Below are positions 13,941 to 61,948 of a DNA stretch of 64,000 nt, piece after piece. This stretch comes from Actinoalloteichus caeruleus DSM 43889. Its GTDB lineage: Bacteria > Actinomycetota > Actinomycetes > Mycobacteriales > Pseudonocardiaceae. Positions within the stretch are counted from its first letter, which is position 1. The number at the start of each line of letters is the position of its first letter. The translations under genes and the position numbers were made by a program. Below the pieces are notes generated by a model. That model did not search any database, had not been told where the DNA came from, and saw only the letters and a program-made list of their open reading frames with translations. The stretch covers positions 4,154,001 to 4,218,000 of the forward strand of contig NZ_AUBJ02000001.1 in NCBI RefSeq assembly GCF_000429185.2, written 5' to 3'.

Positions 13941-14146
13941 ACGGCGCGGGTGCCGCCGGCCGGGCCCGCGCGGACGACGACGACCAGCGACGGGACGACG
14001 GGACGAGTCCTCGGATGACGGGAGTTGGACCGGCCCGCCGCGTCCGACTCGCCACCGGTGGGCTGGTGCCCTCGCGGTGGCTGAGGGAGCGGGGGGAGAC
14101 CGGCCAGTGGTCAGGCTGACGGAGCGGGCACAGTCAGGTGGATGAG

Positions 14147-15784
14147 ATGCGGGGCGAGGAAGGGGTCGGCGCCGGCCCGGCGGCCGACGGAGCCGAGAAC
14201 CGACCGGCTGGTCGGGCGCGCGGGTTGGCGGGACCGAGTACCGCCAACCGGCTCACCCGGTACGGGCTGGCGCTGGTGGTCCTGCTCAGCGGGCTGACGC
14301 TGCTGGCGGGATACGCCAACAAGGCCCGCTGCACCGGACCCGAGTTCGACGAGTACGGGCGCAGCGGCCCGATGTACAAGGAACGGATCGACGGCGACGT
14401 CTGCTACTCCGACATCCAGCACCTGTGGCTGGGCCGGGACATCGACAAGCACGTCTTCCCGTACCTCGACGGCAGCCTGAACGAGTACGGGCAGCCCGAG
14501 GGCGGCACCGTCGAGTACCCGGTGCTGACCGGCGTGGTCATCTGGGCTGGCGCGATCTTCGCCCACAACGACGCCGAGTTCCTGCTCGGGTCGGCGCTGG
14601 TGATGGCCCCCTTCGGCCTGCTGACGGCGTGGATGCTCGGTGGGCTCTCCCGGTGGCGCGCCCTGATCTGGGCGCTGGGACCGCCCGTCGTGCTGTACGC
14701 CTTCCACAACTGGGACCTGCCGGTGGTGCTCTGCGCGGTCGCCGCCGTGTACGTCGTGCACCGGGGCTGGGGGAGGCGGGGCGCGCACCGGCCGCTGACG
14801 GATCGGGCGTTGGTCGCCTCGGTCCTGCTCGCGCTCGGGTTCGCCTTCAAGATCTACCCGGGTGTCTTCGTCCTGCCGCTGCTGCTCTACGTCCTGACGG
14901 GGGGCATCGGTGGCCGGGAGTTGCCGGCCTCGGTCCGGCGGGCGGGGCGGCGCCTCGACCCGGCCGGCGCCATGCGGGTGGCGTTCGCCGCCGTCGTGAC
15001 GGTCGTGCTGGTGAACCTGCCGTTCATGCTGCTCGGGTTCGAGGGCTGGCGGGCCTCCTTCGAGTTCCAGGGCAACCGCAAGGTCGACCTGACGACGAAC
15101 TCGATCTGGTACTGGGGCTTCCGGCCGTGGTCCAATCCCGACAACGGCGCCTTCCAGGCCGCGATGGACGTGCTGTCGCCGACCCTGATGCTGGCCTCGT
15201 TCGCACTCGCCTGCTGGCTGGGGTGGCGGCGTTTCCAGCGGGAGGGCACCTACCCCTGGATCGCGGTCTCGGCGGCGATGCTCTGCGGCTTCCTGCTGCT
15301 GCACAAGGTGCACTCCCCCCAGTACACGCTGTGGCTGTTGCCGTTCTTCGTGCTCATGCGCATCCGGTGGCAGTGGATCGCCGCCTACTTCGTCGCGGAC
15401 CTGGCCATGGGGATCGGGATCTTCCGGTGGTACTACATCACCACCTGGGGCTTGCCGCCGACCATCTACGACGGTTTCGCGCCGCAGGCGGTCATGATCG
15501 GGGTCTGGGGGCGGGCCGCCCTGTTGTTGGCGTTGTTCTTCGTGTTCCTGAACAGCCGGTCGACGGTGGACGGTGAACCCGCGCCCAGTCCGCGCCGCCG
15601 GCGGCCGGGGCTGAGCCGGTCGCCGGCCCAGGCGGCCGTGTCGGCGGGAGCCGTGGCGCGGGGCGGGGACCCGGCGGAGCCGGGCACCGGCGCGGCGGAC
15701 GCTCCGGTGGGACGGGAGGACGACCTGGGTGGCGACGCCGAGGGCACCGCCGAACGCGGCGTACCCCCGGGGGATGTGAGGTAG
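14147..15784 (+). CDS. GT87-type integral membrane glycosyltransferase
   Basis: Protein of about 545 residues with a short polar N-terminus, around ten membrane segments and a 70-residue Pro/Ala/Gly cytoplasmic tail. GT87 features include YSDIQHLWLGRD and GGTVEYPVLTGVVIW after the first loop (acidic residues near the catalytic site), AFKIYPGVFVLPLLLYVL, and LLHKVHSPQYTLWLLPFF. Family members are polyprenyl-phosphate-mannose-type transferases that build envelope glycolipids or lipoglycans. It corresponds in neighbourhood to M. tuberculosis Rv0051. The ATG chosen has AGGTGG at the right distance; a GTG three codons earlier is possible. Confidence 0.85.
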   Translation: MRGEEGVGAGPAADGAENRPAGRARGLAGPSTANRLTRYGLALVVLLSGLTLLAGYANKARCTGPEFDEYGRSGPMYKERIDGDVCYSDIQHLWLGRDIDKHVFPYLDGSLNEYGQPEGGTVEYPVLTGVVIWAGAIFAHNDAEFLLGSALVMAPFGLLTAWMLGGLSRWRALIWALGPPVVLYAFHNWDLPVVLCAVAAVYVVHRGWGRRGAHRPLTDRALVASVLLALGFAFKIYPGVFVLPLLLYVLTGGIGGRELPASVRRAGRRLDPAGAMRVAFAAVVTVVLVNLPFMLLGFEGWRASFEFQGNRKVDLTTNSIWYWGFRPWSNPDNGAFQAAMDVLSPTLMLASFALACWLGWRRFQREGTYPWIAVSAAMLCGFLLLHKVHSPQYTLWLLPFFVLMRIRWQWIAAYFVADLAMGIGIFRWYYITTWGLPPTIYDGFAPQAVMIGVWGRAALLLALFFVFLNSRSTVDGEPAPSPRRRRPGLSRSPAQAAVSAGAVARGGDPAEPGTGAADAPVGREDDLGGDAEGTAERGVPPGDVR

Positions 15785-50445: not shown

Positions 50446-52266
50446 TCAGCCCAGGCGTTCCCGCAGCGCGGCCAGCTCGTCCCGCAGCGTGCCGGGCAGG
50501 GCATCGCCGATCGTGTCGAACCACTCCTCGATCAGGGGCAGCTCGGCACGCCACTCCTCCCGGTCCACGCGCAGCGCGGCCTCGACGTCCGCCTCGGTAC
50601 CCGCCAACCCGGACAGGTCGAGCCCGCTGGCGGTCGGTACCCGCCCGATCGGGGTGTCGACGGCCGCCGCGACCCCGTCCAGGCGGTCCACGATCCACTT
50701 CAGCACGCGCGAGTTCTCACCGAAGCCCGGCCACAGGAACCGGCCGTCCTCGCCCCGGCGGAACCAGTTGACGTAGAAGATCCTCGGCAGCCGGGAGGCG
50801 TCGGCCTCCTTGCCGAGGTTGATCCAGTGCTGGAAGTAGTCACCCGCGTTGTAGCCGATGAAGGGCAGCATGGCCATCGGGTCCCGCCGGACCTGCCCGA
50901 CCCGTCCGGTCGCCGCCGCCGTCTTCTCGCTGGAGAGGGTGGCGCCCATGAAGACACCGTGCTGCCAGTCCCGGGCCTCGGTGACCAGCGGGATCGTCGT
51001 CGCGCGTCGTCCGCCGAAGAGGATCGCGGAGATGGGCACTCCTCGCGGATCGTCCCACTCGGGCGCCAGCACGGGGCACTGTCCCATCGGCGTGCAGTAC
51101 CGCGAGTTCGGGTGGGAGGACAGCTCGCCCCGCTCCCCGTCCTCGGGCGTCCAGTCCTCGTGCCGCCAGGAGGTGAGGTGGTCGGGGGCACCGTCCATCC
51201 CCTCCCACCAGATGTCGCCGTCCTCGGTCATCGCGACGTTGGTGAAGATGGAGTTCCCGCGCTCCAGCGTGCGCATCGCGTTGGGGTTGGTCTTCCAGTT
51301 CGTGCCAGGCGCGACGCCGAAGAACCCGGCCTCCGGGTTGACCGCGTAGAGCCTGCCGTCCTCGCCGAACCGCATCCACGCGATGTCGTCGCCGAGGGTC
51401 TCGACCCGCCAACCGGGGATGGTGGGTTCCAGCATGGCCAGGTTGGTCTTGCCGCAGGCGGACGGGAAGGCGGCCGCGACGTAGCGCACCTCGTCGGTGG
51501 GGGAGATCAGTTTGAGGATGAGCATGTGCTCGGCGAGCCACCCCTCGTCCCGGGCCATCGCCGAGGCGATCCGCAACGAGTAGCACTTCTTGCCCAACAG
51601 CGCGTTGCCCCCGTAGCCGGAGCCGAAACTCCAGATCGTGCGCTCCTCGGGGAAGTGCGAGATGTACTTGGTGTCGTTGCAGGGCCAGGGCACGTCCGCC
51701 TCGCCGTCGGCGAGCGGCCTGCCCACCGAGTGCAGGCAGGGGACGAACTCGCCGTCGCTCCCGAGGCGGGACAACACCTCACCCCCCATTCGGGTCATGA
51801 TGTGCATCGACACCACGACGTACTCGGAGTCGGTGATCTCGACGCCGAACATGGGTCGCTCGGCGTCCAGCGGTCCCATGCAGAACGGGATGACGTACAT
51901 CGTCCTGCCGCGCATGCACCCCCGGTACAGCTCCGTCATCACCCGTTTCATCTCCGCCGGCGGCATCCAGTTGTTGGTGGCCCCGGCGTCGGCCTCGTCC
52001 CGGGAGCAGATGAACGTGCGCTCCTCGACCCTGGCCACGTCGCTGGGGTCCGAGGCGCACCAGAACGAGTTGGGCTTGGCCCGGAGGGGTACGAAGGTGC
52101 CCGCCGCGACCAGGGCGTCGGTCAGCCGCCTCCACTCCGCCTCGGAGCCGTCGCACCAGACGACGGTGTCCGGGGTGGTCAGGTCCGCGACCTCGCGGAC
52201 CCAGGCGAGGAGACCTTCGTGGGTGGTGGGCGGCTGGTCGAGACCGGGTACGGCGAGTGCGGTCAT
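50446..52266 (-). CDS. pckG: Phosphoenolpyruvate carboxykinase (GTP)
   Basis: Protein of 606 residues, normal for the GTP-dependent enzyme. It converts oxaloacetate plus GTP to PEP for gluconeogenesis. Landmarks: [25 protein letters not shown], the reactive Cys/P-loop [25 protein letters not shown] (metal site), [14 protein letters not shown] and [15 protein letters not shown] (guanine-binding region). The ATG follows GAGGACC. The long 825-bp upstream gap probably holds a catabolite- or redox-responsive promoter. Confidence 0.98.
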
Positions 52267-53062
52267 GGTCCTCACGTCTCCTGACTGCCAGGTGCTGCCG
52301 GCGGTGGTTGTGCGCTGTCCACGGCTCGGTGGAACACGAAGACCCCCACGAACGCGGAAATGCTTCGCGCCGCCCGGTGGCGGCGGGCGGACCACGAAAT
52401 TGGGGGTTCCCGAAGGTTAGCGGCAGTAGGCCCTCGGTACTCAACGGAAAGTTGTCGGCTCTCTCACAGGACCGATAAGGGTATCGATTCAGCACCTGGA
52501 AGTTGGGCTCTGTTCTCGTTTGTCCGCAACGAATTCGGTCCGGTTCGGGTGAGTGGGCGGGGTGCGCTCGCCGTCCCCGGTCAGGCGTACCGGCGGCGCG
52601 GCGGAGCCCGTTCGACGGCGTTCGACGCCCGGGGAGCCGGGCGAACGCGAGAATGCGCGCAACCGGTTGACCAGTTTCGGTGGGCTGGGCCGGACGCCTC
52701 CGGTCCGTGGTCCGGTCCGCAGGCGCCGGGAAATACCGGTGGCGATTCCATTCCGCGCGGCCAGGCGAAGGGGAGGTCGCGGGCCGTGGTGGTTTATCCG
52801 GTTGGCGGCCGAATGGGCGTCGAATAGGGGGATATTCGGATGCCAGGGCCAGTGCCGCGAACTTCCGCTGGAATTGGGGGAAAGTCCGCCGGTCGACCCC
52901 GTTCCCTTTCCTCCGGTAGCGGGCCCGGCGGTGTTCCGACCGCGCCGCTCACCGGATCGGGCGCGGTTCGGAGCGCGCCGCCGCCCGTGGGGGCGGTCGG
53001 CGGGCGCCAGGAGCGGACCCGCCGACCACGACGGCCACGACCACGCCGAGTGCCGTCGGCGC
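52267..53062. other. Long intergenic region upstream of pckG
   Basis: About 800 bp without a credible gene. It contains moderately AT-rich patches at 52440-52520 and 52790-52870. CGAATA-N6-TATTCG at 52821-52838 is a small inverted repeat. The pckG promoter is expected in the first 250 bp upstream of its ATG. Confidence 0.5.
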
Positions 53063-53091: not shown

Positions 53092-53916
53092 TCAAGCCCA
53101 GTGCGCCTGCGCGACCTCGGGCGACTCCCCGCTGGCGTCCCCGCTCGGAGCGGAGGCACCGGCCACGGGGACGGCGGACCCGCCGACGGACGCGGTGACG
53201 TCGTAGCGCGCTCGTGCGTCGGTCGCCTCGTCGCCCCACTCCTCGTCGGAGCCGCTGGGCACCGCCCCGTGGTGGCCGGTGTCGGGGACGTACTGCCCCT
53301 GGGCGTCCAACCCGCCCTGTTCGACGACGACCCACTCCCCGCCGCCGGTGTGCTCGGCGAGGACCACCGTGCCGTCGGCGTGGAACTCGGCGATCAGGTC
53401 GGCGTCGCCGTCGCCGTCGACGTCGCTGACGACCAGCACGACGTCATCCTCGGTGACCACCACGGAGGTGTCGGCGACTCCGTCACCGTTCATGTCCTCC
53501 GTCGGCGCGCCGACGTCCATCGGGCCGCCCGGTGTGCGCACGAGGATGGAGTCCCCCGAGTAGCTGGCGTCGTCGAAGGGTTCGCCGGCGGGCAACTCCC
53601 CGATGTCGAGGCGGGGGTTCCCCTCGAGGGTCCGTTCGGGGTCGGACGCCACCCAACCACCGGACGCCTGGTCGTAGCCGGCGGTCCCGGTGACGTTGCC
53701 GTGTTCGTCGTACTCGACCAGCAGGTCCGCCTCACCGTCGCCGTCCGAGTCCGTGAAGACCAGGTACCCGTCGTCGGTCTCCAACAACACGCTGTCCGGT
53801 GTCCCGTCGCCGGAGAAGTCGTGGTTGGTCTCCCCGGTGTACTCCTGGCCGTCGACGACCACCCGCAGGTCCGTGCTGTCGCCGGTGGTGTCACCGGCCT
53901 CACCCTCGATGTACAC
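53092..53916 (-). CDS. DUF6802-type protein with calcium-binding-like repeats
   Basis: Protein of 274 residues, acidic. It contains several DxDxDG-type loops resembling EF-hand, dockerin or FG-GAP calcium sites: DFSGDGTPDSV, DSDGDGEADLLVEYD, DMNGDGVADTSVV and DVDGDGDADLIAEFH, alternating with beta strands, so an FG-GAP-like propeller fragment is likely. No signal peptide is visible despite the extracellular style of the repeats. The Ala/Ser/Gly C-terminus looks disordered. The GTG start has GAGGGGG upstream. It lies 89 bp after the dynamin operon on the same strand and could be cotranscribed. Confidence 0.85.
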   Translation of the reverse strand: MYIEGEAGDTTGDSTDLRVVVDGQEYTGETNHDFSGDGTPDSVLLETDDGYLVFTDSDGDGEADLLVEYDEHGNVTGTAGYDQASGGWVASDPERTLEGNPRLDIGELPAGEPFDDASYSGDSILVRTPGGPMDVGAPTEDMNGDGVADTSVVVTEDDVVLVVSDVDGDGDADLIAEFHADGTVVLAEHTGGGEWVVVEQGGLDAQGQYVPDTGHHGAVPSGSDEEWGDEATDARARYDVTASVGGSAVPVAGASAPSGDASGESPEVAQAHWA

Positions 53917-54005: not shown

Positions 54006-55949
54006 TCACGGTAGGCAGTTCTGGTTCCCGCCCAACCGGGGCCCCGGGCCCGGCCGGCCCGGGGAGGTGCCGGGCTGGGCGGCGTGGCCGCGACCAGGCC
54101 CGAGCTCGCGCATCCTGGCGAGCAGCTGGTCGACCTGTTCGGCCCCGGCCCGCACCTCCGCCAGGGTTCGGCGCACCCGTTGCGTCTCCCTCGCGCGGTC
54201 GGCGGAACCCATCCGCAGCGCCCTGTCGACCTCCCGGAGCTCCTCCTCGATGCCGTTGACGCGCCGGCCGAGCACCTCGTCGAGCGCGGTCGAGAGCTGG
54301 ATCTCCGCCTCGATCAGCTGCTCGGACACCACCTGGTCCAGGGTGGACCGGGCGTCGGCGAGGGCATCGGACAGCCACTGCCGCAGGTGCTGCTTGTCCG
54401 CGCCGTGGCGGCGGACCCGGCCGATCCACCAGCCGGCGCCGAGGCCCAGCGCCACCACGGGAACGACGAGCGGCAGGGCTGCCAGCCCGGCCGCGGCCCC
54501 GAAGGGCAGCATCGCCAGCTTGCTCGCCCCCAGCCCCGCCGAGATGCCCATCGACCCGCCCATGAAGACCAGCAGGCGGTCCTCCGCCGTCTGCTGGCGC
54601 CGGTCCGCCGGGCGCATCACGACGAAGGGCTGGGTGGACCTGGCCACCTGGTCGCGGATCATGGCGAGTTCGGCGGGCGAGAACAGTTCGGCGAGCGTCA
54701 GTTCGGTCACCCTGGCCAGCCGTTGTTCGAGCATCGCGCTGGTGCGGGCCGAGAGGAGTCGCAGCGCGGCGTCCACGTGCCGGGGCAACCGCTCGAGCCC
54801 GGCGCGGTCCGCGCCGTCGATCTGCCGGCGGAACCAGTACTGCACGTCGCGGACCTGGCGGGCGACCTCGTGACCGCACTCGACCCGTGCCCGGTTCAGC
54901 TCGCCTCGCAGGCGCAGCTGCCATCCCCTGCTGGCGGAGCGGCGTTCCGCCGACAGCTCGTCCCGGCGTCGCCTGAGGGCGCGGGCCTCGTCCTCCCCGG
55001 TGGTCAGGGCCCGTTCCTCGGCCTCGAGACGGGCGGTGAGGGCGGCGAGGGAACTGGCGAGCGCCCGCATCGTGTTCGCCTCGCCGAGCATGTTGCCGCG
55101 TCCGGCCACGGTGCTGACGAGCGAGGTGGCGAGTTCCGCGATCCCCGACCGCGCCCGCAGCATGTCGGCGGGCCCCGCGTGCGGGGCGGAGGCGGCGAGC
55201 TGCGACAACCGCGCGGACACCGGGTGGATGTCGGCGTCCGCGAAGCGCGGCGCGTGCTCGGCGAGCAGCGCCCTGTCGGCGGCGAGCACCTCCCGCCACC
55301 CCCGGTACTGGTCCGTCTTGGTCAGGGCGAACACCACCGTCTCCACCCGGTCGGAGATGGAGCGGAGGAAGGACAGCTCGCCGTGGGTCAGCGGGCTGGA
55401 GGCGTCCAGGACGAACAGCAGGGCCGTCGCCTTCGCCGCCGCGTCCGCCGCGCGCTCACCGTGGATCGCGTCCAGACCGCCCACACCCGGCGTGTCGACC
55501 AGGTCGAGGTCGGTGAGCAGCGGTGCCGGCCCGGTGACCGCGATGTCGCGGGGCGGCAACGCGCCGGGCGGGAGCGTGCCGTCGACGCACACCCAGTTCC
55601 GCAGTTCGCCCAGGGGGATGTCCACCGCCGCGTCGTCTCCGTAGCGGGCCGAGGCGCTCCACGAGGGGCCGCCGGTGAACCGGAGGTAGGTGGCCGTGGC
55701 GACGTCGGCGTCGACCGGGGACAGGTCGTGCTGGTCGAGCAGCGCGTTCACCAGGGAGCTCTTGCCCCGGTTGGTCTCGCCGACGACCACCACGGTGGGC
55801 CGGGGCTGCTTGGCCCCGCGTACCCGCTCGACCCACTCGGCGGCGTCGACGTCGGCCGAACGCAGCAGTTCCACCAGTCGTTCCCGCGTCTGCCTGACCA
55901 GCTTGGGCAGGGCGACGCCGGAGCCGGACGGGGCCCGCTCGCCGGTCAT
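54006..55949 (-). CDS. Dynamin-family GTPase with membrane segments (DynB/IniA-like)
   Basis: Protein of 647 residues. GTPase motifs: P-loop GETNRGKSS (57-65), DTPGVGG (152-158) and TKTD (210-213). A long helical stalk with coiled-coil character (LEAEERALTTGEDEARALRRRRDE) is followed near residues 465-515 by a hydrophobic hairpin (GISAGLGASKLAMLPFGAAAGLAALPLVVPVVALGLGAGWW), then another helical stretch. Bacterial dynamins remodel membrane; in Streptomyces DynA/DynB support sporulation septa and in mycobacteria IniA/IniC respond to envelope stress. The ATG overlaps the preceding stop (ATGA). Confidence 0.93.
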   Translation of the reverse strand: MTGERAPSGSGVALPKLVRQTRERLVELLRSADVDAAEWVERVRGAKQPRPTVVVVGETNRGKSSLVNALLDQHDLSPVDADVATATYLRFTGGPSWSASARYGDDAAVDIPLGELRNWVCVDGTLPPGALPPRDIAVTGPAPLLTDLDLVDTPGVGGLDAIHGERAADAAAKATALLFVLDASSPLTHGELSFLRSISDRVETVVFALTKTDQYRGWREVLAADRALLAEHAPRFADADIHPVSARLSQLAASAPHAGPADMLRARSGIAELATSLVSTVAGRGNMLGEANTMRALASSLAALTARLEAEERALTTGEDEARALRRRRDELSAERRSASRGWQLRLRGELNRARVECGHEVARQVRDVQYWFRRQIDGADRAGLERLPRHVDAALRLLSARTSAMLEQRLARVTELTLAELFSPAELAMIRDQVARSTQPFVVMRPADRRQQTAEDRLLVFMGGSMGISAGLGASKLAMLPFGAAAGLAALPLVVPVVALGLGAGWWIGRVRRHGADKQHLRQWLSDALADARSTLDQVVSEQLIEAEIQLSTALDEVLGRRVNGIEEELREVDRALRMGSADRARETQRVRRTLAEVRAGAEQVDQLLARMRELGPGRGHAAQPGTSPGRPGPGPRLGGNQNCLP

Positions 55950-56668
55950 CCCGGCCCTTTCCGCGTGTAGACGGTGACGACGGGTACCCGCAGCGTGCGA
56001 CCGCGGTCGGCGAAACCCACCACCTCCGTCTCGGCGACCGTCCCGGCCAGCGCCGGGTCGTCGGTGTCCGTCACGCCACCGGCCTCGTGGCGGGCCGGGT
56101 CGAACCGGTCCCCGTCCGGCCGCAGCGAGGTGACGCCGACGGCCGCCAGGCCCTCCTCGATGCGTTCGGCCACACCCGCGCTGCGCGCCCGGTCCAGGGC
56201 GTACAGGCAGAGCCTGATCAGGTCCTGGCGCTCACGCAGGACGCGTTCGTGGTCGGTGGTGTCCTCGGCGGTCGCCGCGCGCGCGGCCGTGTCGAGCGAA
56301 TGAAGGCCCACGTCGCGGTAGGACGTGTCGCCGGCGCGGGCGGTTCCGGCCGTCCCGGCACCGGACGGGGGCACCGGTGTGGCCGTCGAGGCCGGGGGTC
56401 GGTTCTCCGCTGGCACGGGTGCGTCCGGCACGTCGGGTGCCTCCGGCACTTCGGGCGCGGCGCCGTGCGGGGTGGCGTCGTCGGGGTGGACCGAGGGGAC
56501 GGCCTCGGGAGGGGCGCTGGGAACGGGCGGGGTGAGGGGCGGCTCCGGTGGTACGAGCACCGGGTCGGTGTGCTCGTCGTGGCCTCGGGCGGCCCGCCCC
56601 GGGCCGGTCCCGGGTCGTGGTGTCGGGCGCGGCTCCTCGCGTCGCCGCCGCCGGAACCAGGGGGTCAT
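55946..56668 (-). CDS. GrpE-like protein between two dynamin genes
   Basis: Protein of 240 residues. The N-terminal half is Pro-rich and disordered (basic RRRRREEPRP then many PxP). The C-terminal 110 residues resemble a nucleotide-exchange factor GrpE: helix ERVLRERQDLIRLCLYALDRARSAGVAERIEEGLAAVGVTSLRP, then the beta-domain pattern DGDRFDPARHEAGGVTDTDD, TVAETEVVGFADRGRTLRVPVVTVY. The start ATG overlaps the upstream TGA and the stop overlaps the downstream ATG, so the three genes are translationally coupled. A partner Hsp70 is not in the window. It may instead serve as an adaptor for the dynamins. Confidence 0.8.
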   Translation of the reverse strand: MTPWFRRRRREEPRPTPRPGTGPGRAARGHDEHTDPVLVPPEPPLTPPVPSAPPEAVPSVHPDDATPHGAAPEVPEAPDVPDAPVPAENRPPASTATPVPPSGAGTAGTARAGDTSYRDVGLHSLDTAARAATAEDTTDHERVLRERQDLIRLCLYALDRARSAGVAERIEEGLAAVGVTSLRPDGDRFDPARHEAGGVTDTDDPALAGTVAETEVVGFADRGRTLRVPVVTVYTRKGPG

Positions 56669-58206
56669 GTCGCCTCCCTGAGCTGTTGCCAGAGTAGGAA
56701 GTAGGCGCGGTGGACCACGTGGGCCACCCTGCTCTGCGCCGGAGTGGCCCCGAACGAGGCGAACGACCGCCACCAGCCGGCACGTTCGAGCGCGTGGGCG
56801 GCGAGTTCCGTCCTGGGACGTCCGGCGAGGCCCAACCGTTCCCCGGGGTCCGAGGTGCTCCCGACCCGGAGGATCTCCTCGGCGAGGTCGTCGGGCATCG
56901 CGACGGTTCCGCCCGCGACCAGGGTCAGCGCCTCCAGCAGGCGCAACTGGTGCGCTTCGGGCCGCGCCAGCAGCACCTCGATGGCGTCGTGGACGCGTTG
57001 CCGTTCGCCGGGGTCGCCGGAGGCGTGGGCGAGCGCCGTGACGGAGGCCATCGCCGCCGCCGCCTTGATCCCGTCCGCCCTCGCCTGGAAGAGGGTGCGC
57101 AGCCGAGCGCGCACGGCGGCGAGCCCGGAGGCGTCCAGGAGCCGGCGGCGGAGGGCGCCGGCGGTGATCTCGGGGTCCTCGGTGACGGCCAGGACGCCGC
57201 TGCGGACGCCGTACAGGTCGAGTCGTTCCAGGAGCCGGCGGCGGTCGGCCGGCGGCACCGCGCACTCCCAGTCGACGAACAGGTCGGCGGAGAGCAGCAT
57301 CGTCTCCCTGGTCTCCTCGTCGAGCGCGGCCAGGTCCTTCAGGCACCGCGCGTCGGCCGAGGTGAAGCCGCCGGTCTCCGAGGTCTCGGCGAGCAGGCCG
57401 ATGACGGGCAGCACGTCGGCGACCCTGGGGCGGAGCGCGGCCGCCTGGCTGGCGGCGACCAGGCCAGCCGCCCGCCAGGTGGAGCCGTCCGAGCCGGGGA
57501 CCGAGTCCGGTTCCACCGTGTCCGCCTTGTTGAGGACGGCGACGGCGTTGACCGGGCCGGCCTCCCGGCGGGCGGTGGCCGCGGTGAAGGCGGTCAGCGC
57601 GTGCTCGTCGTCCGCCTTGACGGTCTGGGTGAGGACGTAGAGCACGGCCTCCGCTCCGGCGACCGCGTCGCGGGACACCGGGTCCAGCTCACCCGGTGGC
57701 TCGTCGCCCGCGCCCAGCAGTTCCCGGGTGCGGCGGACCGACGCCGAGTCGAGCGATCCGAGGCCGGGGGTGTCGATGACGGTCAGGTCACGCAGGACGG
57801 CGTTGGTCAGGTAGGCCTCGAGGTGGGAGACCGACGCGATGTCGACGCCCAGGTCGGCGGGGATCATGCCCTGCTGGTCGAAGGGGAGGACCTGCTTGCG
57901 GCCGTCCCGGAAGATCACCTCGACCCGGTCGACGGTGCCGTACTGGAAGCGGGTCACCAGCCGGGTGCACTCGCCCACGTCCGTCGGCGCCACCCGGCGG
58001 CCGATCAACGCGTTCACCAGCGTGGACTTGCCGGACTTGATCCGTCCCGCGACGGCGACCTGGAGCGGGGCGGAGAGCCGGTGGAGCACCTGCCGGAAAC
58101 CGGCCGCCGTGGCCGGGCCGACCTGGGGCTGGAGCCGGTCGCACAGGGTGGCCACCGCCGCCGAGAGCGGGCCGGGCCAGTGCCGCTGGGGTGGTCCGTG
58201 GACCAA
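56665..58206 (-). CDS. Dynamin-family GTPase (DynA/IniC-like)
   Basis: Protein of 513 residues with P-loop GRIKSGKST (54-62), DTPGLGS (145-151) and NKADTV (226-231). Threonine of the switch I region is probably in the GECTRLVTRF segment. The rest is helical; no clear transmembrane hairpin, so it may act as the soluble partner of the second dynamin. The TTG start has GAGGAG upstream. First gene of the dynamin - GrpE-like - dynamin operon. Confidence 0.92.
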   Translation of the reverse strand: MVHGPPQRHWPGPLSAAVATLCDRLQPQVGPATAAGFRQVLHRLSAPLQVAVAGRIKSGKSTLVNALIGRRVAPTDVGECTRLVTRFQYGTVDRVEVIFRDGRKQVLPFDQQGMIPADLGVDIASVSHLEAYLTNAVLRDLTVIDTPGLGSLDSASVRRTRELLGAGDEPPGELDPVSRDAVAGAEAVLYVLTQTVKADDEHALTAFTAATARREAGPVNAVAVLNKADTVEPDSVPGSDGSTWRAAGLVAASQAAALRPRVADVLPVIGLLAETSETGGFTSADARCLKDLAALDEETRETMLLSADLFVDWECAVPPADRRRLLERLDLYGVRSGVLAVTEDPEITAGALRRRLLDASGLAAVRARLRTLFQARADGIKAAAAMASVTALAHASGDPGERQRVHDAIEVLLARPEAHQLRLLEALTLVAGGTVAMPDDLAEEILRVGSTSDPGERLGLAGRPRTELAAHALERAGWWRSFASFGATPAQSRVAHVVHRAYFLLWQQLREAT

Positions 58207-58349: not shown

Positions 58350-59003
58350 TCAGGCGGGGGCGGGGGCCGGCAGCCCCCGTGCCGTCTCGGAGAGGCCGTC
58401 GATGGTGGTGTGCAGCACCTCGGCGAGCAGGGCGGAGGGCAGCGGCCCCTCGGGACGCGCCAGCCAGGCCTGGAGGGAGACCGAGACGGTCCCGGCGAGC
58501 GCCATCGCCCACGCCTGGGGGCGGGGGTCGGTGTGGGGGTCGGCGCCGAGCCGTTCGGCGATCAGGGCGGTCAGTTCCCGCATCCAGTTCGAGGAGACGA
58601 TGTGCTGCGCGTACCGCACCTCGTCGACCTCGGCGAGGAGTTCGCACCGCAGCAGGTGCTGCGCCCGCTCCTCCTGCATCACGTCGTCGAGCTCGCCCAG
58701 CGCCCAGGCCAGGGAGCGCATCGGGTGCTCGTCGGCGGGCCGCCGGCTGATGCTCTCCCGCAGCATCTGGGCGGGCCAGGCCGGGTCGCCGAAGAGGACC
58801 GCCTCCTTGCTCGGGAAGTAGCGGAAGAAGGTGCGTGGCGCGATGTCGGCGGCGTCGGCGATCTGGGCGATCGTGGTGGCCTCGAAACCGTGTTCCCGGA
58901 ACAGGCGGAGCGCGGCCGCCTCGATGCCGGCGCGGGTCCGCTGCGCCCTGCGCCGCCGGCGGTCCGGCGGTGCGGCGTGATGGGGGTCCGGGGCCTCGGT
59001 CAT
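58350..59003 (-). CDS. TetR-family regulator of the MFS transporter
   Basis: Protein of 217 residues. Helix-turn-helix FEATTIAQIADAADIAPRTFFRYFPSKEAVLF, residues about 42-72; the C-terminal ligand domain (MftR/SACE_7040-like in style) has LLRCELLAEVDEVRYAQHIV. The ATG has GGGAG upstream. It is divergent from an EmrB/QacA-type exporter with an imperfect 28-bp palindrome between the starts. It is probably the repressor of that exporter. Confidence 0.92.
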   Translation of the reverse strand: MTEAPDPHHAAPPDRRRRRAQRTRAGIEAAALRLFREHGFEATTIAQIADAADIAPRTFFRYFPSKEAVLFGDPAWPAQMLRESISRRPADEHPMRSLAWALGELDDVMQEERAQHLLRCELLAEVDEVRYAQHIVSSNWMRELTALIAERLGADPHTDPRPQAWAMALAGTVSVSLQAWLARPEGPLPSALLAEVLHTTIDGLSETARGLPAPAPA

Positions 59004-59052
59004 GGCTCCCAAGGGTTCACGGGATGTCCGGCCAGTGTCAACCATGCCATAA

Positions 59053-59080
59053 GTCACGTGTGCCAACTGGCACGTGTGAC
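59053..59080. promoter_or_regulatory. 28-bp imperfect palindrome, candidate TetR operator
   Basis: GTCACGTGTGCCA-AC-TGGCACGTGTGAC; the arms match at 11 of 13 positions and the inner GTGCCA/TGGCAC is perfect. TAACGT (59082-59087) is a possible -10 for the MFS gene immediately next to it. Confidence 0.7.
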
Positions 59081-59144
59081 ATAACGTGGAGGGGTCGGCC
59101 TGGTCGAGGGAGGGCCGGCTTCCCCGTCTTGTCGAGGAGATGAC

Positions 59145-60929
59145 GTGTCCCGTGTCCAGCCCGAGGCCCAGGTGCCGCCGGGACAACCCCGTTCGTCGAT
59201 GACGGACGACGAGCGCGCCGCGGTCGCCGAGGGCATCGAGTTATCGGTCTACCGCGACAGGTGGAAGACCCTGCTGGTGCTGTGCCTGGCGCTGGCGACG
59301 GTCATGCTGGCCAACACCTCACTGGGGGTCGCGCTCCCCGTGCTCTCGGTGGACCTGGGTGCCACCACCAGCCAGCAGCAGTGGTTCAACAACGCCTTCA
59401 CGCTGGTGTTCGCCGGTCTGCTCTTCACCGCGTCCGCGATGGCCGACCGGTACGGCCGCAAGGCCATGTTGCAGGCGGGCCTGGTGGTGTTCGGCCTCGG
59501 CTCCGCCTACGTGTGGCTGTTCACGGACTCGAGCACCGAGCTGATCGCCGCCCGTGCCGCGCTGGGCGTCGGCGCCGCGATGGTGATGCCCGTGACGCTG
59601 TCGATCCTGACCAGTGTCTTCCCCCGCCACCAGCGGACCAGGGCGGTGGCGGTGTGGGCCGCCGTGTCCGGCGCCGGTACGGCCCTCGGGCCGGTGGTCT
59701 CCGGAGTCCTGCTGGAGTTCTACTCCTGGCAGTCGGTCTTCGTCATCAACATCCCCGTCGTCATCGTCGGCGTGGCCCTGGGCGTCCGGTTCGTCCCCGG
59801 CCACCGGCTGGTGGCGGCCGGCGCCGGCGAGGGCGGGCACGGTGGCATCGACCCGGGTGGGGCGGTGCTGTCGACGCTGGGTATCGGCACCGTCGTCTAC
59901 GCCCTGATCCAGGCGGAGCACAACGGGTGGGCGTCGGCGACGACGCTGGGACTGCTCGCGGCCGGCCTCGTCCTGGTCGCGGTCTTCGTCCTGTGGGAGC
60001 GCCGGGTGAAGGACCCGATGCTGGACATGACGCTGTTCCGGGACAAGGCGTTCTCCGCGTCGGCGCTCTCGCTCACGCTGGTGTTCTTCGCCCTGATCGG
60101 GGTGTTCTTCTCCCTCAGCCTCACCCTCCAGCTCGTGTTCGGCTACTCGCCGCTGATGTCCTCGGTGGCCATGCTGCCGGTCTCGGTGATGATGGTGCTG
60201 GTCTCGCCCCAGGTCGCCCGGGTCGTGGGCCGGTTCGGCCCGAGGGCGACCGTGGTGAGCGGGATGGGTCTCGCCGCGCTCGGCATGGGGATCCTGGGCA
60301 CCCTGAGCGTCGACTCGGGCTACTGGCACCTGTTGTTCGGCCTGGCCACCGTCTCGCTGGGTATCGCGCTCACGATGCCGCCCGCCACCGACATGCTGAT
60401 GTCGAAGGTGCCCCGGGAACGGGCCGGGATGGGGTCGGCCACCAACGACGTGACCCGCGAGATCGGTGCCTCGCTGGGGATCGCGGTCCTCGGTTCGGTG
60501 CTGGGCAGCACCTACGGGAGCCGGTTGTCGGACTCGCTGACGGGTTTCCCCGAGGACGTCCGGGAGACCGCGACCAACTCCTTGGTCGGCGGTCTCGGTG
60601 TGGCCCGGTCGTTGGGTGAGGAGGGCACCGGACTGCTGCGCGAGGTCATGGAGTCCTGGATGGACGGGGTGCGGGTGGCCCACCTCGCGGCGACCGTGCT
60701 GATCCTCATCGCGGTAGTGGTGGCCTGGGCCTGGCTGCCCCGGGTGGCGGAGGACATGCACCGGACCGCCGGGTCGGAGGGGGCCGGGGACGCGACGTCG
60801 TCGTCGACCGCCGGTGACGACGGGCCCGCCGAGACCGGTGGCGCCCAGCAGGAGGCCTCCGCCGTGGCGAGCGGCGCGGGGGGAGCGGAGGACGGCCGTT
60901 CGCCGGCCAGGTCCGACGGCGGGGAGTAG
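59145..60929 (+). CDS. MFS drug efflux transporter, DHA2 (EmrB/QacA) type
   Basis: Protein of 594 residues with 14 predicted membrane helices. Motifs: LATVMLANTSLGVALPVLSVDLGATTSQQQW (first helix and DHA2 pattern), ADRYGRKAML (motif A), and GAGTALGPVVSGVLLEFYSWQSVFVINIP (motif C). The C-terminal 70 residues are disordered Gly/Ala/Glu-rich. It is expected to export toxic organic compounds by proton antiport. The GTG has GAGGAGATGAC upstream. Controlled by the divergent TetR gene. Confidence 0.94.
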   Translation: MSRVQPEAQVPPGQPRSSMTDDERAAVAEGIELSVYRDRWKTLLVLCLALATVMLANTSLGVALPVLSVDLGATTSQQQWFNNAFTLVFAGLLFTASAMADRYGRKAMLQAGLVVFGLGSAYVWLFTDSSTELIAARAALGVGAAMVMPVTLSILTSVFPRHQRTRAVAVWAAVSGAGTALGPVVSGVLLEFYSWQSVFVINIPVVIVGVALGVRFVPGHRLVAAGAGEGGHGGIDPGGAVLSTLGIGTVVYALIQAEHNGWASATTLGLLAAGLVLVAVFVLWERRVKDPMLDMTLFRDKAFSASALSLTLVFFALIGVFFSLSLTLQLVFGYSPLMSSVAMLPVSVMMVLVSPQVARVVGRFGPRATVVSGMGLAALGMGILGTLSVDSGYWHLLFGLATVSLGIALTMPPATDMLMSKVPRERAGMGSATNDVTREIGASLGIAVLGSVLGSTYGSRLSDSLTGFPEDVRETATNSLVGGLGVARSLGEEGTGLLREVMESWMDGVRVAHLAATVLILIAVVVAWAWLPRVAEDMHRTAGSEGAGDATSSSTAGDDGPAETGGAQQEASAVASGAGGAEDGRSPARSDGGE

Positions 60930-61027: not shown

Positions 61028-61948
61028 TCAGCGGTAGTCGTCGGCCGTGCGGTCCCGACGACCGCCGAGGGCGACCTCGCGGATGTAGGTGGCCGCGTCG
61101 GGTTGGGAGCCGTCCAGGTCGCGCACGCCGTAGGCGGCGGCGAGCTCACCGCTGGACACGCCGCGCCCTCCCCAGCGGGAGACGTCCGGGTCGGCGGCGA
61201 GGGCCGCGACGGCGCGGCCCAGGTAGCGGGGGGTCTCCGAAATGGCGAAGTGCGGATCCCGCTCGATGCCGTCCCGCCAGTTCTCCTCGGTCACCCCGAA
61301 GTGGTCCAACATGCGTTCCGAGCGGAGGAAACCGGGGCTGACGGTGACCGCCGCTCCCCCGAAGGGCGCCAGCTCGTGGTGGAAGGCCGTGCCGAGCCGG
61401 CGCATCGCCGACTTGACCAGGAAGTAGGGCACGGCTGTCCCCACGTACTCGTCGTCGTCGCCGTCGGTGACCTCGACGAGCAGGCCGCCCGGCCTGGCGA
61501 TGAGCAGCGGCAGCAGCGTGTGCGCGGTGACGAGGTGGGTCTCGACGCCGTTGCGGAGCACCCGCAGGGCGTCCTCCAGGCTGGTCTCCCAGAACGGGGT
61601 GCCGTGGACCACGAGGGGGTCACCGCCCCAGACGTCGTCGACGAGGATGTCCAGCCGACCGTCCTGCTCGGAGTGGATGCGCTGGGCCAGCGCGGTGACG
61701 TCGGCGACGGAGTTGTGGTCGCAGACGACCGGGATGCCGGTGCCGCCGGCCGAGGTCACCAGCTCGGCGGTCTCCTCGATGGTCTCCGCGCGGTTCAGGG
61801 GACTGCGCGTCCGCCCGCTCGTGCGGCCGGTGACGTAGACGGTGGCCCCCGAGGCGCCGAGTTCCACGGCGATGCCCCGGCCGCATCCCCGGGTGCCGCC
61901 GGTGACGACGGCGACCCGCCCGTGCAGTGGTGCGTTCTTCTCCGCCAC
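61028..61948 (-). CDS. SDR-family oxidoreductase
   Basis: Protein of 306 residues. The cofactor motif TGGTRGCGRG (residues 16-25) and VTGRTSGRTRS suggest NADP preference. VDDVWGGD takes the place of the usual NNAG. The catalytic Tyr-Lys is in YFLVKSA, preceded by an acidic DGDDDEYVG loop. The C-terminal part (ISETPRYLGRAVAALAADPDVSRWGGRGVSSGELA) is typical of a subgroup found near TetR regulators. The substrate is unknown. GTG start with GAGGAC in front. It is downstream of a TetR gene on the same strand, with 52 bp between, and is probably in its operon. Confidence 0.9.
   Translation of the reverse strand: MAEKNAPLHGRVAVVTGGTRGCGRGIAVELGASGATVYVTGRTSGRTRSPLNRAETIEETAELVTSAGGTGIPVVCDHNSVADVTALAQRIHSEQDGRLDILVDDVWGGDPLVVHGTPFWETSLEDALRVLRNGVETHLVTAHTLLPLLIARPGGLLVEVTDGDDDEYVGTAVPYFLVKSAMRRLGTAFHHELAPFGGAAVTVSPGFLRSERMLDHFGVTEENWRDGIERDPHFAISETPRYLGRAVAALAADPDVSRWGGRGVSSGELAAAYGVRDLDGSQPDAATYIREVALGGRRDRTADDYR

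Follow-up and report, generated by a model that had tools for sequence, protein, structure and literature searches.

Gene organisation of the locus

The stretch of the Actinoalloteichus caeruleus DSM 43889 genome (6.04 Mb) analysed in the present study, a window of 64,000 bp (C1:4154001–4218000), contains on its minus strand three overlapping genes, which encode two dynamin-type GTPases and, between them, a proline-rich protein with a GrpE-like C-terminal domain. The first gene (56665–58206) encodes DynA, an IniC-like dynamin-type GTPase of 513 amino acids (aa), read from a TTG start codon that is not certain; the second (55946–56668, ATG at 56668, stop at 55946) encodes the 240-aa middle protein, referred to below as the GrpE-wing protein; and the third (54006–55949, ATG at 55949, stop at 54006) encodes DynB, an IniA-like dynamin-type GTPase of 647 aa. 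The sequence ATGA joins the stop of dynA to the start of the GrpE-wing gene (56665–56668) and the stop of the latter to the start of dynB (55946–55949). The original prediction, made from the sequence of the window, had described the 4-bp coupling of all three genes and the two different dynamin-type GTPases on the flanks correctly, and it was also right that no Hsp70 gene lies within the 64-kb window.

The GrpE-wing protein opens with MTPWFRRRRR and a Pro-rich N-terminal region (residues 1–125; 56294–56668, minus strand), followed by two predicted helices (residues 127–160 and 164–176; 56141–56290, minus strand; AlphaFold model, alignments A1 and A2) and a GrpE beta-wing domain (residues 168–233; 55970–56167, minus strand; Pfam match and predicted strands) that carries the motif FDPARHEA. 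The alignments place a conserved stretch, LCLYALDRARS, within this helical segment, and the segment takes the place of the helical part of GrpE.

The GrpE-wing protein

The GrpE-like C-terminal domain that the original prediction had assigned to the Pro-rich protein is confirmed by profile and structure-database searches. Residues 168–233 aligned with positions 99–163 of the 165 positions of the Pfam GrpE profile (PF01025) at E = 2.2e-5 and 24.6 bits, slightly below the cut-off of 25.8 bits; its orthologues and relatives exceed the cut-off, and, since orthologues reach up to 38.3 bits over roughly the same stretch, the homology of the middle protein to GrpE is not due to chance. GrpE chains of the PDB were matched at E = 1.4e-4 with the single sequence and, with a profile of 30 members from Pseudonocardiaceae, at E = 4.8e-7 at best, all PDB matches of this profile at E ≤ 0.01 being solved GrpE chains. 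The Pfam match begins at profile position 97–102 among the matches listed for type I loci, the syntenic wing/dynamin loci described below, and because it covers just the last two fifths of the profile, the long N-terminal dimerisation stalk of GrpE is missing.

The AlphaFold model of residues 126–240 (115 residues, pLDDT 77.6) predicts two helices, one of about 34 residues and one shorter, and a small beta domain, the Pro-rich region preceding them. Structure prediction had been suggested as a check of the GrpE fold, and GrpE chains were indeed the best VIA-align matches spanning most of the model (1dkg, Z-score 6.0 over 101 residues; 9blt, Z-score 5.8 over 97 residues), at a level that is modest; it is the sequence evidence that carries the GrpE assignment. 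In the phylogenetic tree, the wings of dynamin clusters stand apart from canonical GrpE (98/95, the bootstrap being not fully settled), and two rows labelled canonical from a loose search, L167 and L170, fell on the wing side.

The wings have a signature of their own. Of 49 type I wings, 47 carry the motif A(E/S)T ahead of GF/GY, which none of 30 canonical GrpEs has; these counts and those of the contact residues below leave out two of the 51 wings, L118, which is not syntenic, and L103, with a misaligned C-terminus. The motif AETE is invariant and new in the wing alignment, LCLYALDRARS is conserved, and mean column identity is 71% among 27 aligned sequences. Read from its sequence, the middle protein is best described as a GrpE paralogue that lacks the long dimerisation stalk and bears its own signature. 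The closest named relative of the middle domain belongs to Actinoalloteichus spitiensis (95% identity), and a plasmid search found no GrpE-wing on plasmids. Since the full-length protein (P0002) was a weak class-wide query (19/296 genomes), the domain alignment A1 was used instead; it also retrieves canonical GrpE, and wings were told apart by their bit score (above about 50) and by their neighbourhood. The N-terminal half varies among orthologues; a Trp-hydrophobic-basic motif, W-(FLVIM)-(RK), occurs near the N-terminus in 17 of 51 of them, e.g., MTPWFRRRR in the protein studied here, and perhaps touches the membrane.

The two dynamins

Both flanking proteins contain a dynamin GTPase domain, with Dynamin_N scores of 56.4 bits for DynB and 53.2 bits for DynA (Pfam cut-off 27) and with G1, G3 and G4 motifs that, read by eye, are intact: one dynamin has GETNRGKS, DTPG and TKTD, the other GRIKSGKS, DTPG and NKAD. 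Residues 32–594 of DynB align with the structure of Mycobacterium smegmatis IniA (6j72; E = 1.8e-16), and DynA gave partial PDB matches to BDLP and IniA, within its GTPase part. The two proteins are homologous to the iniBAC-type dynamins of Pseudonocardiaceae, and it is on that comparison that the IniC-likeness of DynA rests. Trees of DynA and of DynB both separate them from these iniBAC-type dynamins; the DynB tree splits wing-linked from iniBAC-linked groups at 96/89, long branches making the joins less sure. Membrane binding and remodelling have been demonstrated for IniA (PMC6715688); DynA and DynB may remodel membranes as well.

Conservation of the trio in Pseudonocardiaceae

Fifty-two type I loci, mostly one per genus, were fetched; DynA, wing and DynB are all present in 49 of them, and L065 is interrupted by a contig end. 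Of 50 loci (the 49 complete ones and the locus studied here), 27 allow a 4-bp overlap at the first junction and 33 at the second, so that overlap coupling is frequent, not universal. A second set, the best 80 of 194 matches to the wing in GTDB genomes, comprises named loci, a few of them cut by contig ends; both dynamins are encoded at 79 of the 80, the remaining locus being cut by a contig end. DynB orthologues (E < 1e-140) were found in 104 of 120 Pseudonocardiaceae genomes. Two genomes of genus g37, G037 and G070, are without any DynB match, and G037 has DnaK as its sole Hsp70 match.

This distribution bears on the suggestion that the wing is a passenger, a fragment of grpE retained in the operon by chance. 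The variable N-terminal half and two genera without a recognised wing would suit such a passenger, but the very strong conservation of the aligned domain and the presence of the wing across nearly all genera make it highly improbable.

Hsp70 genes and their linkage to dynamin clusters

GrpE normally serves Hsp70, and the original prediction implied that no Hsp70 belongs to the operon. Inside Pseudonocardiaceae the neighbourhoods agree with it, as an Hsp70 gene lies within about 10 kb of the trio in 2 of the 80 named loci, those of Allokutzneria and Tamaricihabitans; at L118 (genus g42), outside the type I synteny, the genes for wing, DynB and Hsp70 form one cluster, DynA being encoded about 3 kb off. 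The situation is different elsewhere. Among 20 GrpE-type matches examined outside the family, 12 had a wing and both dynamins; one of these (L175, G204:C114, contamination 5%) was dropped, since the synteny with PEP carboxykinase (PEPCK; PEP, phosphoenolpyruvate) and DUF6802 genes on its 11-kb contig indicates a probable contaminating Pseudonocardiaceae sequence. All 11 remaining GrpE-wing/dynamin clusters, from six genera of two other families, have an Hsp70 gene within about 10 kb, ten inside the fetched region and the eleventh just beyond its edge. The idea that Hsp70 is truly absent from operons of this kind was thus rejected: an adjacent Hsp70, whose constant presence the original prediction had named as its refutation, is the rule in the clusters of other families and an exception in Pseudonocardiaceae. 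The eight GrpE-type loci not counted as dynamin clusters, some of them on short contigs, comprise L187, L188, L191 and L192, where the gene stands beside an Hsp70 without a dynamin, and L183, L190, L193 and L194, with neither.

The Hsp70s in question differ from DnaK. When ten non-DnaK Hsp70s were compared with Pfam, all matched the HSP70 profile only up to position 368–375 of 599, i.e., over the nucleotide-binding domain (NBD); the sequence beyond it has propeller repeats (WD40 or PQQ), a predicted membrane segment or no recognised feature, and Pfam recognised no substrate-binding domain. Two wing/dynamin clusters encode an NBD fused to WD40 repeats or to a PQQ-type propeller (L176 11688–14285, L178 12013–14595). 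In five of six genomes of family f18, the cluster Hsp70 is the sole Hsp70 match besides DnaK-like ones and a short match at profile positions 135–239, which reads as a probable MreB-like protein. By a simple hydropathy rule, the majority of dynamin-linked wings outside Pseudonocardiaceae have predicted membrane segments. The f18 wings (L180, L181, L182, L184, L185, L186) seem to have a lipobox-like start (LTGC or similar), from which about 80–90 residues lead to a membrane segment and a Pro-rich linker then leads on to the wing; membrane-spanning wings of this kind may sense outside signals.

A second dynamin pair of Pseudonocardiaceae, encoded in the order DynB then DynA, is iniBAC-like (type II). 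In L133, the one type II locus checked against NCBIfam, a neighbouring open reading frame (ORF) contains the IniB N-terminal domain (E = 8e-17), and the neighbour ORFs of further type II loci resemble it by eye. An Hsp70-type gene adjoins 22 of 23 iniBAC-type loci (L119–L121, L124 and 19 of 20 further fetched loci, L127 being left out as a diverged trio); the remaining locus is on a 4-kb contig, the Hsp70 of L119 is just off the fetched edge, and the other 21 are inside the fetched loci. Large ORFs that end, as judged by eye, in a LuxR-type helix-turn-helix lie close to the iniBAC-like genes of L125, L133 and L134 and are perhaps relatives of IniR.

The genome of A. caeruleus encodes DnaK, a canonical GrpE and three NBD-only Hsp70s (C1:4223098, C1:2816583 and C1:4649571). 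In the tree these three fall among the Hsp70s linked to wings (98/96), the iniBAC-linked ones forming a separate group (99/96); the implied lack of an Hsp70 partner is right only in part. The nearest one (C1:4223098; L009 5599–7752) is a 717-aa, NBD-only protein with a predicted membrane segment, whose gene starts 10.9 kb from DynA and 5.1 kb past the window end. The distance between its orthologue and DynA is 4.9 kb in L073 and 8 kb in L098, and it amounts to tens of kb in a fourth genus. As an obligate partner this protein (P0004) was rejected, orthologues at E ≤ 1e-115 being present in 9 of 120 genomes and 4 of 46 genera.

For the Hsp70 family as a whole (E ≤ 1e-90), the same 120 Pseudonocardiaceae genomes contain both the trio and the family in 102 cases and neither in 15, with three discordant genomes: G033 and G094 (genus g33), which have the trio alone, and G086, which has the Hsp70 alone. 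The sisters of G033 and G094 in genus g33 only narrowly pass the Hsp70 threshold, and the diverged trio of genus g42 was scored as absent. The co-occurrence favours a link between trio and Hsp70 without proving it.

Proposed role of the GrpE-wing protein

Our preferred reading, at about even odds, is that the GrpE-wing protein is an exchange factor or adaptor that joins a membrane Hsp70-type ATPase to the dynamin pair. An exchange-factor-like or adaptor role in a dynamin operon, as originally predicted, is a fair reading of sequence and conservation; the structural match adds modestly to it. A role together with Hsp70 is favoured by the GrpE homology, the Hsp70 linkage in two other families, the NBD-only make-up of the Hsp70s, the tree grouping of the Hsp70s and of DynB, the co-occurrence, the nearness of an Hsp70 to DynA in three of four genera that have its orthologue and the predicted membrane segments of most dynamin-linked wings elsewhere. 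The paralogue lacks the stalk and retains the beta-wing, the part of GrpE that holds the NBD of Hsp70; the protein would bind NBD-only Hsp70-type ATPases, several of them with a predicted membrane anchor, and would exchange nucleotide on them or act as an adaptor. Wing and Hsp70 could then determine when and where DynA and DynB assemble on the cytoplasmic membrane, with envelope maintenance or stress as the probable role, the stress part being borrowed from iniBAC. In other families the Hsp70 genes still adjoin the operon, while in Pseudonocardiaceae they may have moved off it from a formerly adjacent position and act in trans. A possible extension, put forward tentatively and rather more likely wrong than right, is an actinobacterial machine of four parts. 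An Hsp70-type ATPase without a recognised substrate-binding domain and the stalkless GrpE wing would form a nucleotide-exchange switch in it that licenses the dynamin pair for membrane remodelling. The Hsp70 would often be membrane-anchored, the wing of some families would span the membrane and carry a lipobox-like segment, and Hsp70/GrpE would serve as a signalling switch, not as a folding chaperone.

The contact residues are partly consistent with an exchange or adaptor role on Hsp70. The contact FDP..HEA, through which GrpE meets Hsp70 (PMC11685456), is retained in the wing, with F64, D65, P66, H69, E70 and A71 invariant in alignment A2. The stalk of canonical GrpE touches the substrate-binding domain and the linker region of DnaK (PMC10803776, PMC11685456), so that a stalkless wing would fit an Hsp70 without a substrate-binding domain.

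Several observations weigh against a link to Hsp70 or to the GrpE fold. Arginine 169 of M. tuberculosis GrpE bridges to lobe IIB of DnaK (PMC10803776), and of 49 type I wings, 47 have V, L or I at the equivalent position, where 29 of 30 canonical GrpEs have R. DnaK contact residues are also changed in the NBD-only Hsp70s, and a clear compensating swap between the contact residues of wing and Hsp70 was sought and not seen. In GrpE at large, the R169 position is not universal, E. coli GrpE being different. Hsp70 is missing near the trio in 78 of the 80 named loci, and L094 and L116, which are the remaining two of the 52 type I loci and come from two genera, have both dynamins without a recognised GrpE-wing. 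A membrane segment is predicted in only one of 51 wings of the type I set, that of the non-syntenic L118, unlike in their relatives. The shared absences of trio and Hsp70 amount to about two events, as the lacking genera form two groups of the PEPCK tree (g37 with g3, g42 with g5), PEPCK alone resolving Pseudonocardiaceae poorly and g12 being represented by a 74% complete genome. Finally, an unrelated coiled coil reached a Z-score of 6.5 over 50 residues against 6.0 for GrpE, and Foldseek found no match to the wing model at E ≤ 0.001 (best E = 0.011).

Missing Hsp70 adjacency and the lost arginine in Pseudonocardiaceae make a role without Hsp70 the main rival: the wing would have been turned into a structural element that connects DynA with DynB or with a partner and no longer acts on any Hsp70. 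The position of its gene between the dynamins, the loss of the stalk, the invariant AETE motif and the conserved LCLYALDRARS would all suit a subunit of this kind. It is nevertheless doubtful, given the linkage of its relatives to Hsp70 in two families (11 of 11 clusters), the retained FDP..HEA contact and the co-occurrence with the Hsp70 family.

A further alternative would have the wing serve the housekeeping DnaK as an additional exchange factor, recruiting it to dismantle or refold dynamin assemblies. It is established that eukaryotes use Hsp70 to take membrane coats apart, the genome encodes DnaK and GrpE, and the wing is a GrpE homologue. Both the stalk and the R169 equivalent, however, are contacts to DnaK that have been lost, and the wings of relatives are linked to Hsp70s other than DnaK, in which no substrate-binding domain is recognised; service to DnaK is unlikely.

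Relation to known systems

Among the known systems closest to the trio is iniBAC of Mycobacterium (IniA structures 6j72/6j73), which also combines an IniA-like and an IniC-like dynamin in one operon. Hsp70 genes stand next to the iniBAC-type loci of Pseudonocardiaceae, and iniR of M. smegmatis has a dnaK-like gene as its immediate downstream neighbour (PMC5760070). Unlike iniBAC, the trio has no IniB, and a GrpE wing lies between the dynamins in the order IniC-like, wing, IniA-like. With the DnaK–GrpE pair the wing shares the beta-wing domain and the FDP..HEA contact; it differs in the absent long stalk, the lost R169 equivalent, the A(E/S)T signature and a dynamin pair as operon partner.

Side-by-side dynamin genes are also known for Campylobacter Cj-DLP1/2, for Nostoc BDLP1 and its neighbour, and for Streptomyces DynA/DynB; they are set beside the present pair by description, and by sequence solely via the PDB matches. 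The neighbour dynamin of Nostoc BDLP1 carries a DnaJ-like domain, i.e., an Hsp70 co-factor within a dynamin pair (PMC6104087), and we count this as a precedent in favour of a wing that works with Hsp70, with the difference that the co-factor here is a separate GrpE-type protein and not a DnaJ domain. GAP1-N2 GTPase conflict systems of actinobacteria and firmicutes contain HSP70, GrpE and an HSP70 that lacks the peptide-binding domain (PMC7159879; eLife 2020;9:e52696). They resemble the present case in having GTPase genes alongside HSP70 and GrpE, the GTPases being likened by description only; the word 'dynamin' is absent from the main text of PMC7159879. A GrpE-type protein in a dynamin operon was not described in the open-licence literature searched.

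In our view, little is settled about what activates bacterial dynamins, and a conserved GrpE-type protein in a dynamin operon, together with a matching Hsp70-type ATPase, is a concrete and testable candidate for a controller. If true, the range of Hsp70/GrpE would extend from protein folding to the control of membrane remodelling. As tuberculosis drugs induce the related iniBAC genes (PMC6715688), the switch principle may extend to the envelope response of mycobacteria.

Neighbouring genes

Downstream of type I loci, genes for a DUF6802 protein and a PEPCK are usually found. In the window these conserved neighbours lie at 53092–53916 (minus strand; Pfam DUF6802, 51.2 bits) and at 50446–52395 (minus strand; GTP-dependent PEPCK, NCBIfam, 988 bits). 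A TetR regulator is encoded at 58350–59186 on the minus strand, its best NCBIfam match being the mycofactocin regulator MftR (109 bits, cut-off 224.9), and near it an SDR oxidoreductase (61028–61948, minus strand) has weak mycofactocin-SDR matches. At 14138–15781 on the plus strand, the window contains an open frame of 548 aa that is rich in GC at third codon positions and matches nothing in Pfam at E = 1e-5.

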